From: a virus
Virus record (IMG/VR): IMGVR_UViG_3300042472_000036
Span: 1-30,200 of that record
Reading direction: 5' to 3' (one strand)
DNA: 30,200 nt
Part shown: positions 1,298 to 30,200 of the stretch, in pieces
How positions within the stretch are numbered: position 1 is the stretch's first letter
How the letters are laid out: the number at the start of each line of letters is the position of its first letter
The notes under the pieces: model-generated
What the model saw: the letters and a program-made list of their open reading frames with translations, nothing else
Told to the model about the DNA's origin: nothing
The model's database searches: none
Program-made: the position numbers and the translations under genes

Positions 1298-3478
1298 ATG
1301 GCAAGAATAAATAGAACTGACTTATATGTATATGATGGTGTTGTAAGCGACAACGATTACATTATAGGTAGTGATGGAGATACTGTTGGTGCAAAGACCA
1401 AGAGTTACAAAATGAAAGATGTTCGTGACTTCTTATTAGCAGGTTTATCTCCTACTGTTGGAGGAACTATGCAATATACTGAATACACTTACAACGGAAT
1501 ATTAACTAGCCCAGCAGCGGTATTAAACGCACTTAATCCAGTGTTTGTAGTATTGCCATATCATATAGTAGTAGTTAGTGTAAATGGCGATAAATACATA
1601 TTAAAATCACAGAACGTAACAGTAGGTGTTGGTCAAACTCCATTGTCTGATTCTAATTTTATCTTATTAAGAGGAGATGTTAGTTTAGGAGATGGTCTTG
1701 ATATTTTAAAAGGATACAATGTAGCTACAAAAAAGCACGAATTTTACTCTTTAAAATCTACTAGTTTAAATTTATCTAAAGAAACAATATCATCTATTGA
1801 AACTGGAAATATTCTAGTTGAAATGAAAACTGATATTAATTTGAATATCGGTGTAGGAAGTGAAAATGTTTACAAGGGATATAACGCAGTTAATAGTAAA
1901 CATGAATTTAAAGGAATTAAAGATAGTGTTTCACTAGACGTTAGTTCTGATACAACAGATGTATCTATTGAGATTAAAGAGAATTTAATTAGTACAGCGA
2001 CTGGATCTGCTAAAAGTGTTTATGGTTCATTTAATAACTCTACAAAGAAACATTCTGTAAAAGGAATATCAACAAACACTTTGGTATTGTCTGAGTCTAG
2101 CGGAAGTATTTTTATAGACCTTCCAGAAGATGCTAGTGCTAAGTTCTTTTACGTTAATGAGAATTACCCAACAACTGATGGAAATGGTTCTGAAGCAAAA
2201 CCATATAAATATCTTAAACAAGCATTTGATGCGTTTAAAGGAAGTGGAACTATATTAGCTCCTCAATATGCTGGAGTTGGAACTATTAGATTACTTAGTA
2301 ATATTAATGTTAATTCATTAGCTGTAGATGCTACTTACGGAATGACATACGTTTCAATAAATAAGTTGAAATTAAATGGTGGTGGATTTACTTTGACTTA
2401 TAAAGGAGTTCAGGATTACTTTATATCTACAGAGTATTTAGTCGGATTAGATTCAAAAACTACAAATAGTAAATTGGACAATCAAATACAAATGACATTT
2501 GAAGATGTAACTATTGCATCTGAAGTTACTCATAAGGTAGTAAGACATTTAAACTACACGTCTCCTACGACTACTGGACCTCAAAACACATCTGGAATGT
2601 CATTTACAAATTGTAAAATAATTGACTATGCTTATCTTGCTGATTCAGTAAGTTATGGAGAAACTTCTGTATCTCACTTTGGAATACTTGTTAAAGCTCA
2701 AAATTCATTACCTACAACAAATTATAATGTTTATTTGGAAAATATAAATTGGAATGGAGAAGGTGCTTTTACTGTAAATGGATTAGAGATTCAAGGAAGT
2801 TCTTCTACTATTTTGTATGCAAAAAACACAACATTATCTATAACTAATTTTAATATATACTTCAATCCATTCTATATTAATTACCAAACTATTGCAGGAA
2901 GTGTTTATTCTACTAAAAATGATTTGAGTTTTATAAAGTCAGAAAATACTGGAAGTGTTGGTAATCAATATAAATCTAAAAACTACATTGGTATTCGTGA
3001 CTTCAAAGAGACAAGTCAAGATGCTATAAGTGGCGGTTCTAAAATGGGAGGATGTGCTTCTTTTTATTGGGCTGTTGGAGCTGCTGATATTGAGATTTAT
3101 ACTGGGAGATTTTTATCTGAAAAGGTAAATAACTTGACACTTACAGACATTAGCACTAATGGAGTTCTTTTTAGTGATTTTAATTGTGATTTATTAGAGA
3201 TTGCTGATGCAACTTATGGTGCATTTAGATATACTGGAACAGTTCCTGTTTCTAGAATATTTTATAACGTAACAGGTTCTTCTATAAAGAATATCAAGCA
3301 AAATGCTAGTTTACAATATGTTTATCCAACTGCTCCTTATGCGAATATTAATAGCACATACTTTGCTAACATTAGTGGTATTCAATATGCAAACAATACA
3401 GCAGCACTTGCTGGAGGATTAGTTCCTGGATGTTACTATTATAACTCATCAACAAACGTAGTAACAGTAGTAGTATAA
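1298..3478 (+). CDS. Tail fibre / spike protein with internal repeats and probable beta-helix
   Basis: The 726-residue protein probably binds the host surface. Residues 1-50 carry a short N-terminal module (NDYIIGSDGDTVGAKTKSYK) of the kind that attaches fibres to virions in Bacteroidota phages. Residues 129-278 contain three diverged copies of a roughly 50-residue unit with the core KGYN-x4-KHEF-x-GIK. From about residue 283 (FFYVNENYPTTDGNGSEAKP, then YKYLKQAFDA) the sequence looks like the entry of a right-handed pectate-lyase-type beta-helix, rich in Thr, Ser, Asn and Gly with regular hydrophobic spacing. Catalytic residues for a polysaccharide lyase or hydrolase cannot be named by eye. 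The stop codon overlaps the next ATG by one base. The gene sits between lysis and packaging genes. Confidence 0.75.
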   Translation: MARINRTDLYVYDGVVSDNDYIIGSDGDTVGAKTKSYKMKDVRDFLLAGLSPTVGGTMQYTEYTYNGILTSPAAVLNALNPVFVVLPYHIVVVSVNGDKYILKSQNVTVGVGQTPLSDSNFILLRGDVSLGDGLDILKGYNVATKKHEFYSLKSTSLNLSKETISSIETGNILVEMKTDINLNIGVGSENVYKGYNAVNSKHEFKGIKDSVSLDVSSDTTDVSIEIKENLISTATGSAKSVYGSFNNSTKKHSVKGISTNTLVLSESSGSIFIDLPEDASAKFFYVNENYPTTDGNGSEAKPYKYLKQAFDAFKGSGTILAPQYAGVGTIRLLSNINVNSLAVDATYGMTYVSINKLKLNGGGFTLTYKGVQDYFISTEYLVGLDSKTTNSKLDNQIQMTFEDVTIASEVTHKVVRHLNYTSPTTTGPQNTSGMSFTNCKIIDYAYLADSVSYGETSVSHFGILVKAQNSLPTTNYNVYLENINWNGEGAFTVNGLEIQGSSSTILYAKNTTLSITNFNIYFNPFYINYQTIAGSVYSTKNDLSFIKSENTGSVGNQYKSKNYIGIRDFKETSQDAISGGSKMGGCASFYWAVGAADIEIYTGRFLSEKVNNLTLTDISTNGVLFSDFNCDLLEIADATYGAFRYTGTVPVSRIFYNVTGSSIKNIKQNASLQYVYPTAPYANINSTYFANISGIQYANNTAALAGGLVPGCYYYNSSTNVVTVVV
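1682..2131 (+). repeat. Three diverged protein repeats within the tail fibre gene
   Basis: Residues 129-178, 184-229 and 233-278 of the fibre protein repeat a unit of about 46-50 residues. The common pattern is a Gly-rich start, then V/I-Y/L-x-G-Y/S-N/F, four residues, K-H-E/S-F/V, a G-I-K or similar turn, and a Ser/Thr-rich beta strand ending in an acidic residue. The copies are diverged at the DNA level, so this is an old protein duplication and not a recent tandem array. It may form a shaft of stacked beta modules. Confidence 0.7.
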
Positions 3479-20172: not shown

Positions 20173-21768
20173 ATGGCTATAGGAAAAGTAAATGCTTATG
20201 CTACAGTAGACGCTCCTAAAGCTGATTTTGGAGCAGTAGCACAATTAAATATAGATAATTTAGTAAAGTCAGCTAAGGAAGATGAACAGTTAAAAGTTGC
20301 TAAGAAAGCTGCTGAAGACAAGGCTAAGTCTGAAAGAGAAAAAGATCTTGGTATGTTTCCAGATATGGTTGCTACTGGAGCTGCTGGAGCTGATGCATCT
20401 GGAATAAATCAAGGAGCAAAGGGTCTAAAGATGTATGTTGCTTTAAAGAATGATTGGATTGAAAATAAAAATCCTGAATCTAAAGCTAAAGCTGAAATGC
20501 TTCTTGGTCATTATAAAAACCTAAACAATCAATTAACAGAATTACAAAAAGGAGCTACTAATTTTGGAACTCTAGCTGGTCAAGATAAAATATATTCAAA
20601 AGATAAAGAATATACAATGAATCTTCTTAAATCTTCTGAGGATGGATTGATTCAGTTTGGTTTTGATGAAGATGCCAATCCTAAAGTTGGTATATACAAG
20701 ATAAGCGAAGATGGAAAGAATAAAGAGTTTGTAAAGAGTGTTGACTATAATGAATATTATAAAAACATTTGGACTCCAGTTCCAAAAATAGATATTGATG
20801 CTGATGCTTCTGCAACCAAGGGAGTTTACGAAAAGGATTTTACTGAGAAATATTCTGGAAGAACTAAAACAGGAGTCAAAGAACTTTCTGAAGACGCAAA
20901 GAAAAAGATATATGAAGATTGTCTTTCAAAAGTAAACGACAATAATTTTGCTTATGTGGCAGGAGATATTTATGGTGTTTTGAAAAAAGATGACTTTAGA
21001 AAAAGTGGCTTTTCAGATACAGAAAAAAAAGATATAGCAAGAAAACACGCTGATAAAATCATAGGTATGTTTGGTAGAGAAGTAGCTAAGGATACTACAT
21101 TCTTCGCTCCTAAGGATGGTTCTGGAGATAAAGAACCATTTACTCCTTCTACTATCGGACTAACAAATGCTGATTTTTATGGAAATACAGATGAACAAGG
21201 AGAGCAGATAGACAATTACGCTTTAAATGCTAAGAGTTCTGTATTAACTGGTATTAGCGGAACAAGTGCAAAAGCTAAAAAATTCATAATACCTTCGTTC
21301 CATAAGTGGTCTGCTAATAATCCACAAAGAGTTCCTAAGCAAACAAAAGACATAATGAGTGATTTTATAGTGTCTGACCTTATTTATGACAGGGCAGGTA
21401 GACCAATCGCAAGGGGTTCTTATGTAGATACAAAAACAAAGACTTACAAAGCAGCTGTAGATGGTCTTTTTCAAGAATTTAAAAGAGATGCAGAAGAAAG
21501 AAAGTCTATAGAAACAGACACTGAATTATACGCTAAAGCAGAAGAAGCATTAAAAAGCGAATTAGAACTTAAATCTGAAGTTAGAGGAGTAACTAGGATA
21601 AATCATGCTCAAGCAATAGGTCCTGTAGTAGAACAAAATTTAGCTACATACATGAGAGGAAAGATGCTTAATGGAGTTAAAATAAAAGACGTACCTTCGA
21701 TGCGTAAAGCAATGGGGTATAATAAAACAACAGAAAATAAATATTCCAAATACAATCCAAAAAAATAA
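20173..21768 (+). CDS. Internal virion / cargo protein candidate
   Basis: The 531-residue soluble protein is rich in Lys, Ala, Asp and Glu, with a helical N-terminus (AQLNIDNLVKSAKEDEQLKV, then AKKAAEDKAKSEREKDLG) and an Ala/Gly-rich stretch (MVATGAAGADASGINQGAK). No enzyme motif, signal or membrane segment stands out. It begins three bases after the Ala-Gln-rich protein gene and ends seven bases before the giant gene, so the three are translated together. The ordering small, medium, giant matches ejection protein sets in podoviruses, and crAss-like virions are known to contain cargo proteins in head and tail. Function is inferred from context only. Confidence 0.62.
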   Translation: MAIGKVNAYATVDAPKADFGAVAQLNIDNLVKSAKEDEQLKVAKKAAEDKAKSEREKDLGMFPDMVATGAAGADASGINQGAKGLKMYVALKNDWIENKNPESKAKAEMLLGHYKNLNNQLTELQKGATNFGTLAGQDKIYSKDKEYTMNLLKSSEDGLIQFGFDEDANPKVGIYKISEDGKNKEFVKSVDYNEYYKNIWTPVPKIDIDADASATKGVYEKDFTEKYSGRTKTGVKELSEDAKKKIYEDCLSKVNDNNFAYVAGDIYGVLKKDDFRKSGFSDTEKKDIARKHADKIIGMFGREVAKDTTFFAPKDGSGDKEPFTPSTIGLTNADFYGNTDEQGEQIDNYALNAKSSVLTGISGTSAKAKKFIIPSFHKWSANNPQRVPKQTKDIMSDFIVSDLIYDRAGRPIARGSYVDTKTKTYKAAVDGLFQEFKRDAEERKSIETDTELYAKAEEALKSELELKSEVRGVTRINHAQAIGPVVEQNLATYMRGKMLNGVKIKDVPSMRKAMGYNKTTENKYSKYNPKK

Positions 21769-27700: not shown

Positions 27701-29553
27701 TTAAGCAGTCAAACGATAAAGTTGTAGATGTAATACTTGAGAGAAATAAACCAGGCTCAAGTTTCTTATCTTTAGGAGCTGTAAATGTATTGTTGCTTAA
27801 TCCAACATCAGCAGTATCTCAGCTTTCTTCAGCTCCAAGTTTTCTTGTATCTCTTGACAATATGACAGAAAGAAAGCAGTTCTTAAATATACTTAAAGAC
27901 GGAAAAAAATATAGAGAATATGCTACTAAAGTATTGAATAGTAATTATACTTCAAATAGGATTAATATGTCTAATCACGAATATGATGCGGCTATGTTGA
28001 GAAGACTATCTACAGAAGGAGGGATGTTTTCTTTTGGAGGGGTTGTTGGGGATACTGTATCTGACACAATGTTCTTGACATCGTTATCAGATGCTGCTTC
28101 TGTTGTTTATGGTGGAGCTGCTTTTTTTGGGGTTAAATACGAAGCGAAACTAAAAGAGTATAAAAGGACTATGAATGCCGCTGATGCTGATGCAAAAGCA
28201 ACTAAAGAAGCTATGCTTGATTTAGCTAGGTCTACAGAAAGAACTCAACAATCGTCTCAAGAAGCGTATTTAAGTGACTTCAGAAGGAATCCTATTCTTA
28301 GAGCTATGGGTGCAACTGCATTTTCATCTTCATCGCTTCAAGCAGGAGAGATGGCTGTGAAGGCATTTAGAGACTTAAAAAACGGAAGAGGAAACAAGAA
28401 GGAAAATATACTTAAAGTAATGTATTTTGGAACTTTAGCACCAACAATATTTACTTTAACTGGAGCTTTATTAAGAGGAGCTTTTGACGACGATGACGAC
28501 CCAGCAATTAAATTAGCTAATGACGCATTAAACAATGCTTTAGAGCAATTAACAATTGTAGGTAAGGTAGTAGCAATGACTAAGGATTACTTCTTGGAAG
28601 AATATGCTCCAGAAGCAGTTGGAATGAGAATGAAGTATAATAAAAGTGATAATGATATTATAATTAAATATGCATCAGATCTAGCACCTGGATTAGGAGT
28701 TAAGGTAAGAGACATTAAGGCTGCTATAGATTCAAAAGGCAAGAGAACTGTATTAGAGAGAACAGCTGCTGGTATTCAAGCTACTACAAACATTCCTATT
28801 AAAAGATTTTTAGATATTGGAGCAAATATTGCTGTAATGATTAATAGTGATTATTCAAACATGGTTAGAATAAAAGGTTTGTCTTTACAAATACCAGAAT
28901 CAGAGAGAATTAAACACAGAGACTATATAGAATCTGTTAAAAATAGAGCTGATGAAATGGTAAATCTAAGTACAAAACAGTCTATTCACGCTATGAGTAT
29001 TAAAGACCCTATTGAGAGAAGAAGATTTATAGAAGATGCTTTGACAGATAGAAAGGTTCAATTTATAGATAGCCAACTAAAAACTTGGTTTGAAACTGGA
29101 TACTCTGCATCTAAGCAAACTGAGATTTTCCAACAAGAACGAACTGATGCTCTTAATGATATTAAGAATAATTACTTGAAAAAGTATATTGATGCAATTA
29201 AATCTGGAGATAAAGAGGAGTCTAATAAATCTATAGATAAACTTCTAAGTAGAATTGAACATTATGAAAAAACAAGTTATGATGTTTCAGAAGCTATAAA
29301 GAATGACCTTGATAAAATGGCTACAGACCTAATAAAGGAAGAAACAGATAATTTCAAATCATTATCTAAGTTTAGTAGTGGGAAACCAAGAGGAGTAGCT
29401 TTATATAGTTTAGTAGGAGGATTATTAATGCAAGACTTTGATAGTCCTGGAACAATTGGAACTATAAAAGCTCTAGAGGAAGAAGGAGTGTTAAATAAAG
29501 AAACAATAAGAGAATACGCTAAATATGTAAGAGAAAAAAGAGGGGCTGAATAA
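21775..29553 (+). CDS. Giant internal / ejection protein with polyvalent architecture
   Basis: The 2592-residue protein is the largest here. It opens with two tandem 25-residue motifs (ALNDAHSEFVKGGYKGS, INDFKILL and a second copy). A disordered linker and a region with hydrophobic Ala/Gly-rich helices (about 303-340, LPLMAAAMLTGGTSAALGTI) follow, suggesting membrane insertion. A Gln/Glu/Thr-rich linker (about 650-690) precedes unassigned mixed domains, then a Lys/Glu coiled coil (about 1280-1400). The C-terminal third holds two more hydrophobic segments, near 1996-2012 (FLSLGAVNVLLLNPTSA) and 2215-2234, the second followed by FDDDDDP. This resembles phage polyvalent or ejection proteins (T7 gp16-like role): carried in the virion, entering the host with DNA. 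No RNA polymerase catalytic motif or clear peptidoglycan hydrolase motif was found. Confidence 0.75.
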   Translation: MEEEALNDAHSEFVKGGYKGSINDFKILLSTDKEALSDAHSVFTKNGYNGNVSDFSNLIGISQKKNQVGSATSKETPSVSSSKVQPITSLGTEKTQAVKASGGSVGGKMKTFTGFSKEEQAQMQKPESVIKSEQKQPLKSVNKAPLYAKQLKLQRELSTAVVTPENQEEIQQKTDELSKIKSEATKQTKKEPDFVDSLVSNLDVGLFSLAKAAVKDAPEMAWDLTTTIGATAADILGDETLAVMTKYKADDVAKILGLRNIPAEQLQANINRSNSIIQEYNNKNGVDPLEAISNGNYLGAAKMITGSTMQSLPLMAAAMLTGGTSAALGTISAASGAMKYGELKEEQPDMSTEKKLASAIASGVLEGFVGKFFSGASGAVAKKILADKGVEEGAKIISKGFKSMAMNAIEKNPVIGLVGEVTEESGVEFGNQTIEMANGTRQSYDFKRIANAGISATGMGTANTVFVYGAKGFIKASDYKKVKTANKEISRLTSELSNPNLTESDKGLLSQRIDRLITDNKKVVGDGLEKIKALPNQVKTEVLEINNSLDELKSKVIDLEDNFVISKETKVAMIEEIKSEAKSLTDRKLKIIEGTYIYDDFNKLSDTEKIDRKDKAGIELLNEAKAKGEEKASFDDAQITKKAVENYGNERKQQSDREAANQEEPTGDQTTTESSQPTGEGETGVPGVQEKVDKVYYYNTDPNRGALELAPETLPEGYSSAQAVSNSFELDAWKNQKAVEAFREDEQKELLEAIPNASNALTDGKVDKDKLTAPEEKAKFDEIYDKYDKLITEAKGTSAEKPIETNDFNLKLPDNKDNIIVAWTPNGFILIDSDTKQPIEVFNDNAGNENVGLSKPYNTQEEAQARIEELKTKPTEVKEKSNQLIEINNDSVLHGTDDGYRVKESDKSYETAKDIRQKVAKLTNNESGKIVEFKTENEDGSTTYHTALSVMDTKRGAGNGFLAYSVKVGKDSKLNDTEIYSALRKNLDGVFEQGLVDKKGIISKDVDLSNISKPKPTEAKGAPDVVSEPIDLAVPSKTVEAEVKPTINNLDLLGDKKTQWMRVIPSSELKAHKTGASSSDVYSIEDALLPKKVKGKNIGSQFDRAIAEGRMSPEEAIKVINSAGIEAPESIKKLVKLTEQTVVETPVSETPKEFKARQTLVDKTKNAEQELKDAWKNLGNLGAAYDPKVQAEKQVAMNKAIIKYVVNKIALGAYDVSAFIKDMASNGVELTKEGADFLFGKSQTAYKRQIEQLTGVSRKPSVGQARQQKVINKAYSVGVATQKVETEAQKQKTKAEKIKLREEKAKAKLDIAELKKQFNDAMSSMRTVDDVIKKEELKKQAEGFKQKIAEIKAKLAESEAEVKDLKGQVKDVFKAALEAVKQTKTNAKTDAKSLADFIKAKQSALAEYLEKNLVGKITPKEVATISKAISGASDSAIESANKLIGRVAKRTDAGLKKKLIKSIKENISNKKIVSGDGVKKIEVTLAAKAYLVNARKIDLNSMNTAQLTQLYKDISDVLSTGRADRNAMNEVAKRRRRDLEAEAIVRFERKFKQGVESDNIDVHKTLKDRKIVILEDGTVFFPEDAESTIGMSPQKGTVITENATIQSAGKRFIGSIGASSIAKSIYSSISKIPNFSFSITYRFYDLLSDTESQDFFNNNVFKKLEDFKNRVDDRSTNYSRILNDKIYGQQVGKKTLAKLFKSNLLKTARVFSKKEGLSLGGVTIAKKGDVENLEFGKTSLVLNDRKGDNLNLFEGATNSEVINLYNSLRDYDFLTKTFMKDGRFNLEDALKVIEHVNQNPELKKRADALVETYASIAVDLAAKMDEIGKDLNFGEYMTEDEYRASSLAKNKGDQVIANAQTAQYMSILRAFYGNNIPKIIPYVPISAEKTSSKNVEATTILDQNRVYNPGLAFPNLLERKGGGNLILKSYQESFDNYVKNVSRFIEGTDLLSDFSAIFNGNHSSRILTQQFGEEWVKQSNDKVVDVILERNKPGSSFLSLGAVNVLLLNPTSAVSQLSSAPSFLVSLDNMTERKQFLNILKDGKKYREYATKVLNSNYTSNRINMSNHEYDAAMLRRLSTEGGMFSFGGVVGDTVSDTMFLTSLSDAASVVYGGAAFFGVKYEAKLKEYKRTMNAADADAKATKEAMLDLARSTERTQQSSQEAYLSDFRRNPILRAMGATAFSSSSLQAGEMAVKAFRDLKNGRGNKKENILKVMYFGTLAPTIFTLTGALLRGAFDDDDDPAIKLANDALNNALEQLTIVGKVVAMTKDYFLEEYAPEAVGMRMKYNKSDNDIIIKYASDLAPGLGVKVRDIKAAIDSKGKRTVLERTAAGIQATTNIPIKRFLDIGANIAVMINSDYSNMVRIKGLSLQIPESERIKHRDYIESVKNRADEMVNLSTKQSIHAMSIKDPIERRRFIEDALTDRKVQFIDSQLKTWFETGYSASKQTEIFQQERTDALNDIKNNYLKKYIDAIKSGDKEESNKSIDKLLSRIEHYEKTSYDVSEAIKNDLDKMATDLIKEETDNFKSLSKFSSGKPRGVALYSLVGGLLMQDFDSPGTIGTIKALEEEGVLNKETIREYAKYVREKRGAE
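21787..21951 (+). repeat. Tandem 25-residue motif at the start of the giant protein
   Basis: Residues 5-29 and 35-59 repeat the pattern AL-N/S-D-A-H-S-x-F-x-K-x-G-Y-x-G-x-I/V-x-D-F, spaced by 30 residues (90 bases). Similar motifs open large virion proteins of other Bacteroidota phages as far as I recall. They could be a packaging or docking tag. Confidence 0.75.
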
Positions 29554-29562
29554 CCCCTCTTT
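29537..29562. terminator. Bidirectional terminator at the end of the late operon
   Basis: AAAGAGGGG (29537-29545) pairs perfectly with CCCCTCTTT (29554-29562). The eight-base loop contains the TAA stop of the giant protein gene. A-rich and T-rich flanks allow use from both strands, and the convergent MazG-like gene ends eight bases away. Confidence 0.82.
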
Positions 29563-29569
29563 ATAAACA

Positions 29570-29977
29570 TTATTTAATCCAAGATTTCTTTTTCTTTGGA
29601 AAATCAATTAAGTGGTTAAGACTAACTGGGATAAAACCTTTAGGCTTAATCACTTTTCCATTTTTATCCTTAACTACTTTTCCATCTTCTCCAACTTTAG
29701 TCATATTGTTCTCGTGAACTAATAAGAAAGCCTCTTCTACTGAGTCTTGAAGACCACATTCATTAACTCCTCCTTTTAGGATATAGTCAATATCTACAAA
29801 AGCATCTAATACTTCTACTAGATCATTAGCTTTAAAAGCATCCTCTAATTCCTTAACCTCTTCTTTAAGAAGTTCAATTCTAAGTTTCATTGCTTCTTTG
29901 CTTGGCAGAGTTGGTTTCTCATTTAATTCTTGACCACAAGCTGATTGGAATCCTCTTACTAGAGATAGTTTATTCAT
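29570..29977 (-). CDS. MazG-like nucleotide pyrophosphohydrolase
   Basis: The protein (135 residues from the ATG at 29977) carries MazG/all-alpha NTP pyrophosphatase signatures: LKEEVKELEDAF, giving the metal-binding ExxE pattern, then EVLDAFVDIDYILKG with the second acidic pair (E-x2-D-x3-D), and a C-terminal VHENNMTK. These enzymes split NTPs or dNTPs to NMP and pyrophosphate. In phages they are thought to tune nucleotide pools or host alarmone signalling. The ATG at 29977 is preferred over one at 30019, because homology-like sequence starts at NKLSLVRGFQSA and the bases before it (AAAACAAAAACT) suit Bacteroidota starts. The longer start would read through a terminator-like hairpin. It is the only non-late gene here besides the endonuclease. 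Confidence 0.86.
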   Translation of the reverse strand: MNKLSLVRGFQSACGQELNEKPTLPSKEAMKLRIELLKEEVKELEDAFKANDLVEVLDAFVDIDYILKGGVNECGLQDSVEEAFLLVHENNMTKVGEDGKVVKDKNGKVIKPKGFIPVSLNHLIDFPKKKKSWIK

Positions 29978-30003
29978 AGTTTTTGTTTTAAGTTTAAAAA
30001 AAT

Positions 30004-30142
30004 CCTCGTGTGAGGTCACTTATCATTTCGGTAGCGTAGCACAAGTCAAATGACTGTGCCTCGAATCTTAAATATTGTTTAGAAACCCCTCTCTTATAGC
30101 TTACCGAGTTATCAGTTACGGAGCTTGTATAAGAGTAGGGTT
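30004..30142 (-). other. Hairpin-rich leader region upstream of the MazG-like gene
   Basis: The 223-base stretch from the MazG-like start to the right edge has no convincing gene but holds three hairpins. The first (30084-30142) has about 19 pairs: AACCC/GGGTT, an internal 2x2 loop, CTCTTATA/TATAAGAG, then GCT/AGC and CCG/CGG separated by small bulges, with a 12-base loop. The second (30039-30059) pairs GCAC and AGTC with GACT and GTGC around AAAT. The third (30004-30015, CCTC/GAGG), read on the reverse strand, runs into seven T residues at 29996-30002, like a weak terminator. The strand is inferred from this T-run and the downstream gene. It may be an attenuator, a small RNA or a DNA site. 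Confidence 0.5.
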
Positions 30143-30200
30143 ACTATTTATACTTATTTTAAAAATGCGTTCTATTGAAATTGGAAGTTAGTGCGCCTAT

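Follow-up and report, generated by a model that had tools for sequence, protein, structure and literature searches.

As judged by sequence comparison, two of the three hairpins preceding the MazG-like gene (hairpins 2 and 3) form one conserved RNA element, here called E, and hairpin 1 is predicted to be the terminal hairpin at the 3' end of a larger RNA of phages, here called class B. We put the probability at about one half that E serves as a leader acting in cis on stable RNAs of phages and that the copy in the window was left before the MazG-like gene after loss of a tRNA-like gene. The window, i.e. the whole stretch of 30,200 nucleotides analysed (1–30200), is the entire virus record, and the phage sequence can be read only up to position 30200. 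The MazG-like nucleotide pyrophosphohydrolase gene is situated at 29570–29977 on the minus strand (phrog_671, E-value 1.5e-28; PF01503, E-value 1.5e-10), as are all features of the window given below.

The initial annotation had placed three hairpins in order on the reverse strand before the MazG-like start. All of them are present, hairpin 1 (30085–30141, shared tip AAGCTCCGTAACTGATAACTCGGTAAGCT) with its 19 pairs (5+7+7). Its folding energy of -19.7 kcal/mol (z -2.9) was equalled by 4 of 200 shuffles, and that of hairpin 2 (30038–30060; -12 kcal/mol, z -3.6) by none of 200. Hairpin 3 (30004–30015, loop ACAC) comprises four pairs with -4.8 kcal/mol, a value equalled by 31 of 200 shuffles; in the window an A-A mismatch replaces the fifth pair that is present in relatives. 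Hairpins 1 and 2 exceed chance on folding energy, and hairpin 3 fails on energy alone but is supported by covariation in the relatives. The whole stretch 29990–30160 folded with z -3.35 on the minus strand and z -2.9 on the plus strand, and in both cases 1 of 200 shuffles equalled the value.

Hairpin 3 had also been described as terminator-like. The run of seven T is indeed there, one A after the stem (29996–30002), but the stem has only four pairs (z -1.05) and was not flagged by a terminator scan of 29500–30200, in which a stem of at least five pairs was required. A GC-rich stem of at least five pairs followed by a T-run, as in an intrinsic terminator, is not formed by hairpin 3. A run of at least five T after hairpin 3 is missing in 43 of 47 distinct E copies; runs similar to that of the window occur only in L255, L261, and L280.

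The complete element E comprises 71 nt in the window (30001–30071), with hairpin 2 as its stem P2 and hairpin 3 as its stem P3. In a pattern scan E was found in 54 viral stretches, with a length of about 70–100 nt across copies; the 57 matches correspond to 47 distinct ones. Outside the stems the segments GCTACC, TGAYAAGTG, and CACAYG are conserved, their letters being partly fixed by the search pattern. Covariation was scored in two alignments. Alignment A2 contains 14 short-stem copies, L252 being excluded. Here 8 of 13 pairs have changed on both sides (5 of 8 in P2) and 97.8% of the cells pair; the covariation score is 0.406 as against 0.164 after shuffling, a score reached by 0 of 500 shuffles, and slid controls gave at most 0.104. 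One of five measures, the further pair types, lies within the shuffle range (133 of 500). Alignment A1 was used for stem P3 and contains 41 copies, 3 without a script-found start and 3 duplicate E sequences having been dropped. In this stem 3 of 5 pairs have changed on both sides and 99% of the cells are paired, and the score is 0.539 compared with 0.122 for shuffled alignments and at most 0.286 for slid ones; two of the five measures are within the shuffle range (222 and 452 of 500). When no structure was supplied, RNAalifold recovered both stems of E from the 14 copies and only hairpin 3 from the 41 copies. It also proposed a 4-pair helix in A2 (columns 42–45 with 62–65), which hardly varies and is therefore regarded as unproven. 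A pseudoknot of the hairpin 2 loop with an AAATG segment was rejected as well, as it is possible in the window and lost in L091 and L255.

The window was recognised as a member of this family by a covariance model. Model R3, which had been trained on 12 E copies with the window and L002 withheld, detected it with 88.1 bits and an E-value of 1.1e-22, with one P3 pair broken; a search of this kind across related phages had been proposed as a check. Both stems and the three conserved segments, by which membership in E was defined, are present in the window. All positions invariant in 12 other short-stem copies (A7) are kept, and P2 is intact. Compensating changes, which had likewise been asked for, are found in E, in class B and in the tip of hairpin 1, so the lack of covariation in homologs that had been named as a refutation does not apply. 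G-U pairs on the minus strand, in the alignments of E and class B, suggest a role as RNA rather than DNA. Together, covariation, one-strand G-U pairs and fixed orientation support a predicted conserved structured RNA.

What follows E is similar in most copies. In 38 of the 47 distinct copies a tRNA, tmRNA, or tRNA-like gene begins 3–8 bases past the last hairpin; such a gene is usual for E and not universal. ARAGORN, run with introns of up to 150 allowed, called a tRNA beginning 3–6 bases past hairpin 3 in 27 of the 47 (20 tRNA-Leu, 3 tRNA-Ser, and 4 of other kinds, probably tRNA-like), compared with 41 of 3,000 random positions in the same sequences that pass within 12 bases. Six more copies carry a tmRNA 5' motif and another five show acceptor/T-arm pairing. 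The acceptor/tmRNA test alone was passed by 19 of 47 copies versus 217 of 20,000 random positions; ARAGORN was added because the acceptor-stem test had overlooked G-U-rich tRNA-Leu genes. No tRNA or tmRNA test was passed by nine of the 47, namely L213, L252, L260 (truncated by the contig end), L261, L268, L280, L282, L283, and the window. On the 5' side, an ARAGORN tRNA ends at most 15 bases before E in 9 of 44 copies, 2 bases away in seven of these, and a directly adjacent 5' tRNA is missing in the other 35. That E occupies a fixed position ahead of tRNAs and tmRNA hints at a further level in the production of phage stable RNAs that has so far gone unstudied.

Hairpin 1 belongs to a different family. 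The 25-mer at its tip matches exactly in 16 further viral contigs. When as many as three changes were allowed, the window and the retrieved loci together gave 42 copies, overlapping contigs included. These represent 23 distinct contexts (alignment A6, in which the window stands for L016), with double changes in 6 of 14 pairs and a score of 0.212 as against 0.095 after shuffling and at most 0.106 after sliding. The tip caps two distinct RNA cores, class A and class B. The class B core pattern occurs in at least 120 viral stretches, and the RNA is about 150–430 nt long among the copies listed, its ends being marked by tandem copies in L055 and L076. Alignment A3 was made from 42 of 92 dereplicated cores (126 found), taken from the first 60 listed. 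In the stems P2, P3, and P4 of class B, 14 of 16 pairs show double changes, and the whole structure scores 0.467 compared with 0.112 shuffled and at most 0.091 slid. A pseudoknot of the CTTGAGAAA loop with TTCTCA is putative: its pairs are invariant since the search pattern had fixed their letters, and the few relaxed matches are mixed.

In several phages class B lies directly before E. The order class B, short linker, E, and then a tmRNA or tRNA-like gene is present in L130, L250, L254, L255, L257, and L285. A 3' end was identified for 93 distinct class B copies and was not found for 16 more matches. Of the 93, 26 are followed within 80 bases by an ATG-initiated ORF of 50 aa or longer; E follows in 11, tmRNA in 6, class A in 3, and none of the four in 47. 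Upstream of class B the Bacteroidota promoter box TAnnTTTG was found in 15 of 93 copies as against 8% of random windows, which is too weak to be considered further. L026, L033, L044, and L045 have in common a stretch AGCTAAGCTGTGTAAAG..CAGAACT..ATAATCTGTTAGAAGCTA upstream of class B, perhaps another RNA module.

In the window only the terminal hairpin of class B is left. Model R2 finds no class B core (CTTGAGAAA loop, ATGAGTTCTCAGC) there, and a core match is also missing in L016 and L002. The linker TTCTAAACAATAT between hairpin 1 and E (30072–30084), compared by sequence, resembles the class B–E junction of L003, L130, L254, and L285, and the conserved class B end GGGTGCTAA is altered to GGGGTTTCTAA. 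The place of the class B body in relatives is occupied by a recurrent module GGCGCACTAACTTCC..ATAGAACGC (30167–30197), which in differing contexts is also present in L002, L010, L014, and L020. On the 3' side the MazG-like gene follows E directly, its ATG at 29977 lying 26 bases past hairpin 3, and a tRNA search of the window found none. Since the window locus has neither the body of class B nor a tRNA-like gene, we interpret it as a remnant before the MazG-like gene.

Two relatives, L002 and L003, carry a tRNA-like gene at this place. The MazG-like protein is 100% identical in L002 and 97% in L003, and the leader stretch is longer in both contigs. L002 shows 93% identity to the first 197 bases of this stretch of the window, after which a 141-base tRNA-like gene follows that scores 29.1 with the Rfam tRNA model (cut-off 29). 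An ordinary tRNA extending past the edge had been regarded as a possible refutation; a tRNA-like or tmRNA gene does exist in relatives, but on the MazG side, and the window is without it. In L002 and L255 a tRNA, tmRNA, or tRNA-like gene begins 3–8 bases 3' of E, whereas in the window none does. In L003 an HNH homing endonuclease gene (2254–2730; NUMOD4 and HNH_3 above, AP2 below the cut-off) has a partial E on one side and, on the other, a complete E belonging to a different subtype. This gene and the tRNA-like exons had prompted a search for a group I intron in the tRNA gene, and no Rfam intron matched in L001–L003. By its terminase (71% identity) the phage is placed near Flavobacterium phages of the elemo group. 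In several loci (L002 2836–2976, L003/L011, L013, L019, L020 13231–13363, L254, and L255) tRNA-Leu-like genes were noted that have acceptor, D, and T arms and no clear anticodon, with extra D-loop hairpins or an altered anticodon region. In L008 and L012 very short tRNA-like sequences, seemingly consisting of acceptor stem and T-arm only, lie upstream of the tip hairpin.

It is the fixed place of E from which we infer an action on the following tRNA or tmRNA. E, and class B where present, would be transcribed together with that RNA; E would fold during transcription and act in cis on the stable RNA that follows, giving its precursor shape or protection. RNase P would then cleave at the mature 5' end, releasing the tRNA or tmRNA from E and class B. 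In the window, where the tRNA-like gene would have been lost, E would now form a 5' untranslated segment ahead of the MazG-like gene. What counts against this leader model is that the tRNA-like genes after the closest E copies of the window are without a clear anticodon, so that RNase P might not process them as ordinary substrates. Furthermore, class B, which often precedes a protein gene (26 of 93 copies), is not explained by a role specific to tRNAs. The nine E copies that passed no tRNA or tmRNA test, including that of the window, and the lack of an E match in phi14:2, a phage with class B, also weigh against the model.

Alternatively, E might be a free-standing small stable RNA, freed by tRNA-processing cuts on both sides and acting in trans. 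This possibility is a doubtful one. In the nine copies with a 5' tRNA, tRNAs bound E on both sides, and the conserved segments outside the stems, although partly fixed by the search pattern, also speak for it; on the other hand, 35 of 44 copies have no tRNA directly 5', no target is known, and the fixed, short spacing to the following RNA equally suits a role in cis. Somewhat more speculative is the broader proposal that E is among modular RNA elements placed exactly before phage tRNAs and tmRNAs, which direct maturation of the RNA behind them, possibly as a new self-cleaving ribozyme or as an RNase P-guiding leader, and that class B, whose tips are exchanged between families, represents a novel ornate phage RNA that can be likened to GOLLD and ROOL. 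These RNAs may represent a self-cleaving ribozyme of a new class; the self-cleaving ribozyme families of Rfam gave no match in the window and the scanned relatives. Alternatively, the hairpin modules could be shuffled as a homing or recombination target at the DNA level. Tips and modules do recur across families, and L003 has its homing gene flanked by E sequences, one partial and one complete; homing genes, however, commonly occupy conserved sites. The one-strand G-U pairs, fixed orientation, fixed spacing to tRNA 5' ends, and covariation point to RNA instead, and we consider a DNA element unlikely.

The initial annotation had suggested a transcription attenuator, a riboswitch-like leader or a stable small RNA. 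Its structural part is supported, as a conserved RNA structure with compensating changes is present; control of the MazG-like gene as attenuator or riboswitch is not supported, since the downstream genes differ among copies. Hairpin 3 followed by seven T shortly upstream of the MazG-like start codon, with T-runs also in L255, L261, and L280, is what a MazG attenuator would look like. But hairpin 3 would terminate poorly, such a T-run is absent from the remaining 43 of the 47 copies, and L255 has a window-like T-run and yet a tRNA-like gene behind it. Instead of one gene function, E and class B precede differing genes (tRNA-Leu, tRNA-Ser, or tmRNA, and unrelated genes after class B); in L002 and L003 a tRNA-like gene lies between E and MazG, and in the single elemo record viewed the MazG homologue has no leader and overlaps the preceding annotated gene. 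Control of the MazG-like gene by these hairpins is quite improbable on these grounds. It is still harder to believe that the copy in the window is a decayed remnant without function: the class B body was not found and its conserved end is changed, the tRNA-like gene is lost and one P3 pair is broken, but every A7-invariant position is retained and P2 is unimpaired. The leader reading, with loss of the tRNA-like gene in the window, is the one we prefer.

The initial annotation had recognised no RNA family in the hairpins. Rfam, including GOLLD and ROOL, likewise gave no match at gathering scores in the window, and none in those class B and E loci that were scanned, L245–L288 being outside the scan. 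A literature search over titles and abstracts, with partial coverage, returned no description of E, class A, or class B, an earlier listing being possible; a published catalogue of phage structured RNAs reportedly exists and might already include them. GOLLD and ROOL are ornate structured RNAs of phages and prophages, often located by tRNA islands (PMC12286853). Class B resembles them as an ornate phage RNA near tRNAs, but is shorter (about 150–430 nt) and has its own conserved loops, and E has only about 70–100 nt. The stable RNAs C and D of phage T4 are small non-tRNA RNAs within the tRNA cluster; likened by description, E would be similar in being a small stable non-tRNA RNA among phage tRNA genes. 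In MALAT1/mascRNA a downstream tRNA-like structure sets the 3' end of the preceding RNA via RNase P. By analogy, a tRNA-like structure downstream could set the 3' end of the preceding RNA here, although MALAT1 is a eukaryotic lncRNA.

Class A, an RNA with an AGGGTTT/AAACCCT crossing helix, was found in 114 viral stretches, and its pattern was not found in the window. It has the tip in common with class B and a different core. Like E it lies before tRNA-like genes in several loci; this link rests on tRNA-like sequences judged by eye, and an ARAGORN tRNA lies within 15 bases in only 2 of the 25 copies for which the 3' end could be located. One copy is located at L021 1497–1630. Vibrio phages contain a 41-base match to class A, among them Vibrio phage Va1 (193188–193229).

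BLAST of the window region against named phages gave nothing at 1e-5, and at a limit of 10 only weak matches (E-value 0.7 or worse). The class B core pattern was found in a species-level bacterial and archaeal collection on one contig, of a Sphingobacteriales MAG, where the neighbouring ORFs are phage-like by eye; among 395 genomes of the class of this MAG the class B model matches this MAG alone. A search with the E model through 395 genomes from a single bacterial class, a run that had no positive control, gave no match. Among cultured phages, Flavobacterium phage immuto carries E (20827–20916) before a tRNA-Ser, and no class B core match was found in it. In the crAss-like Cellulophaga phage phi14:2 class B is situated at 2913–3359 on the plus strand under annotated ORFs of the opposite strand, with a predicted tmRNA about 670 bases beyond and no E match; an infection transcriptome of this phage is mentioned in PMC10136315. 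Phages of Bacteroidota, cultured ones included, carry predicted conserved structured RNAs that are omitted or overlaid with doubtful ORFs in annotation. In phage immuto class A directly precedes an annotated tRNA-Cys gene that ARAGORN does not call. Small ORFs annotated over these RNAs (class B, class A, or E) in KC821624 (3106–3431, gp007–gp009) and in MW353175 (immuto26A_31 and immuto26A_33) are probably not genes.
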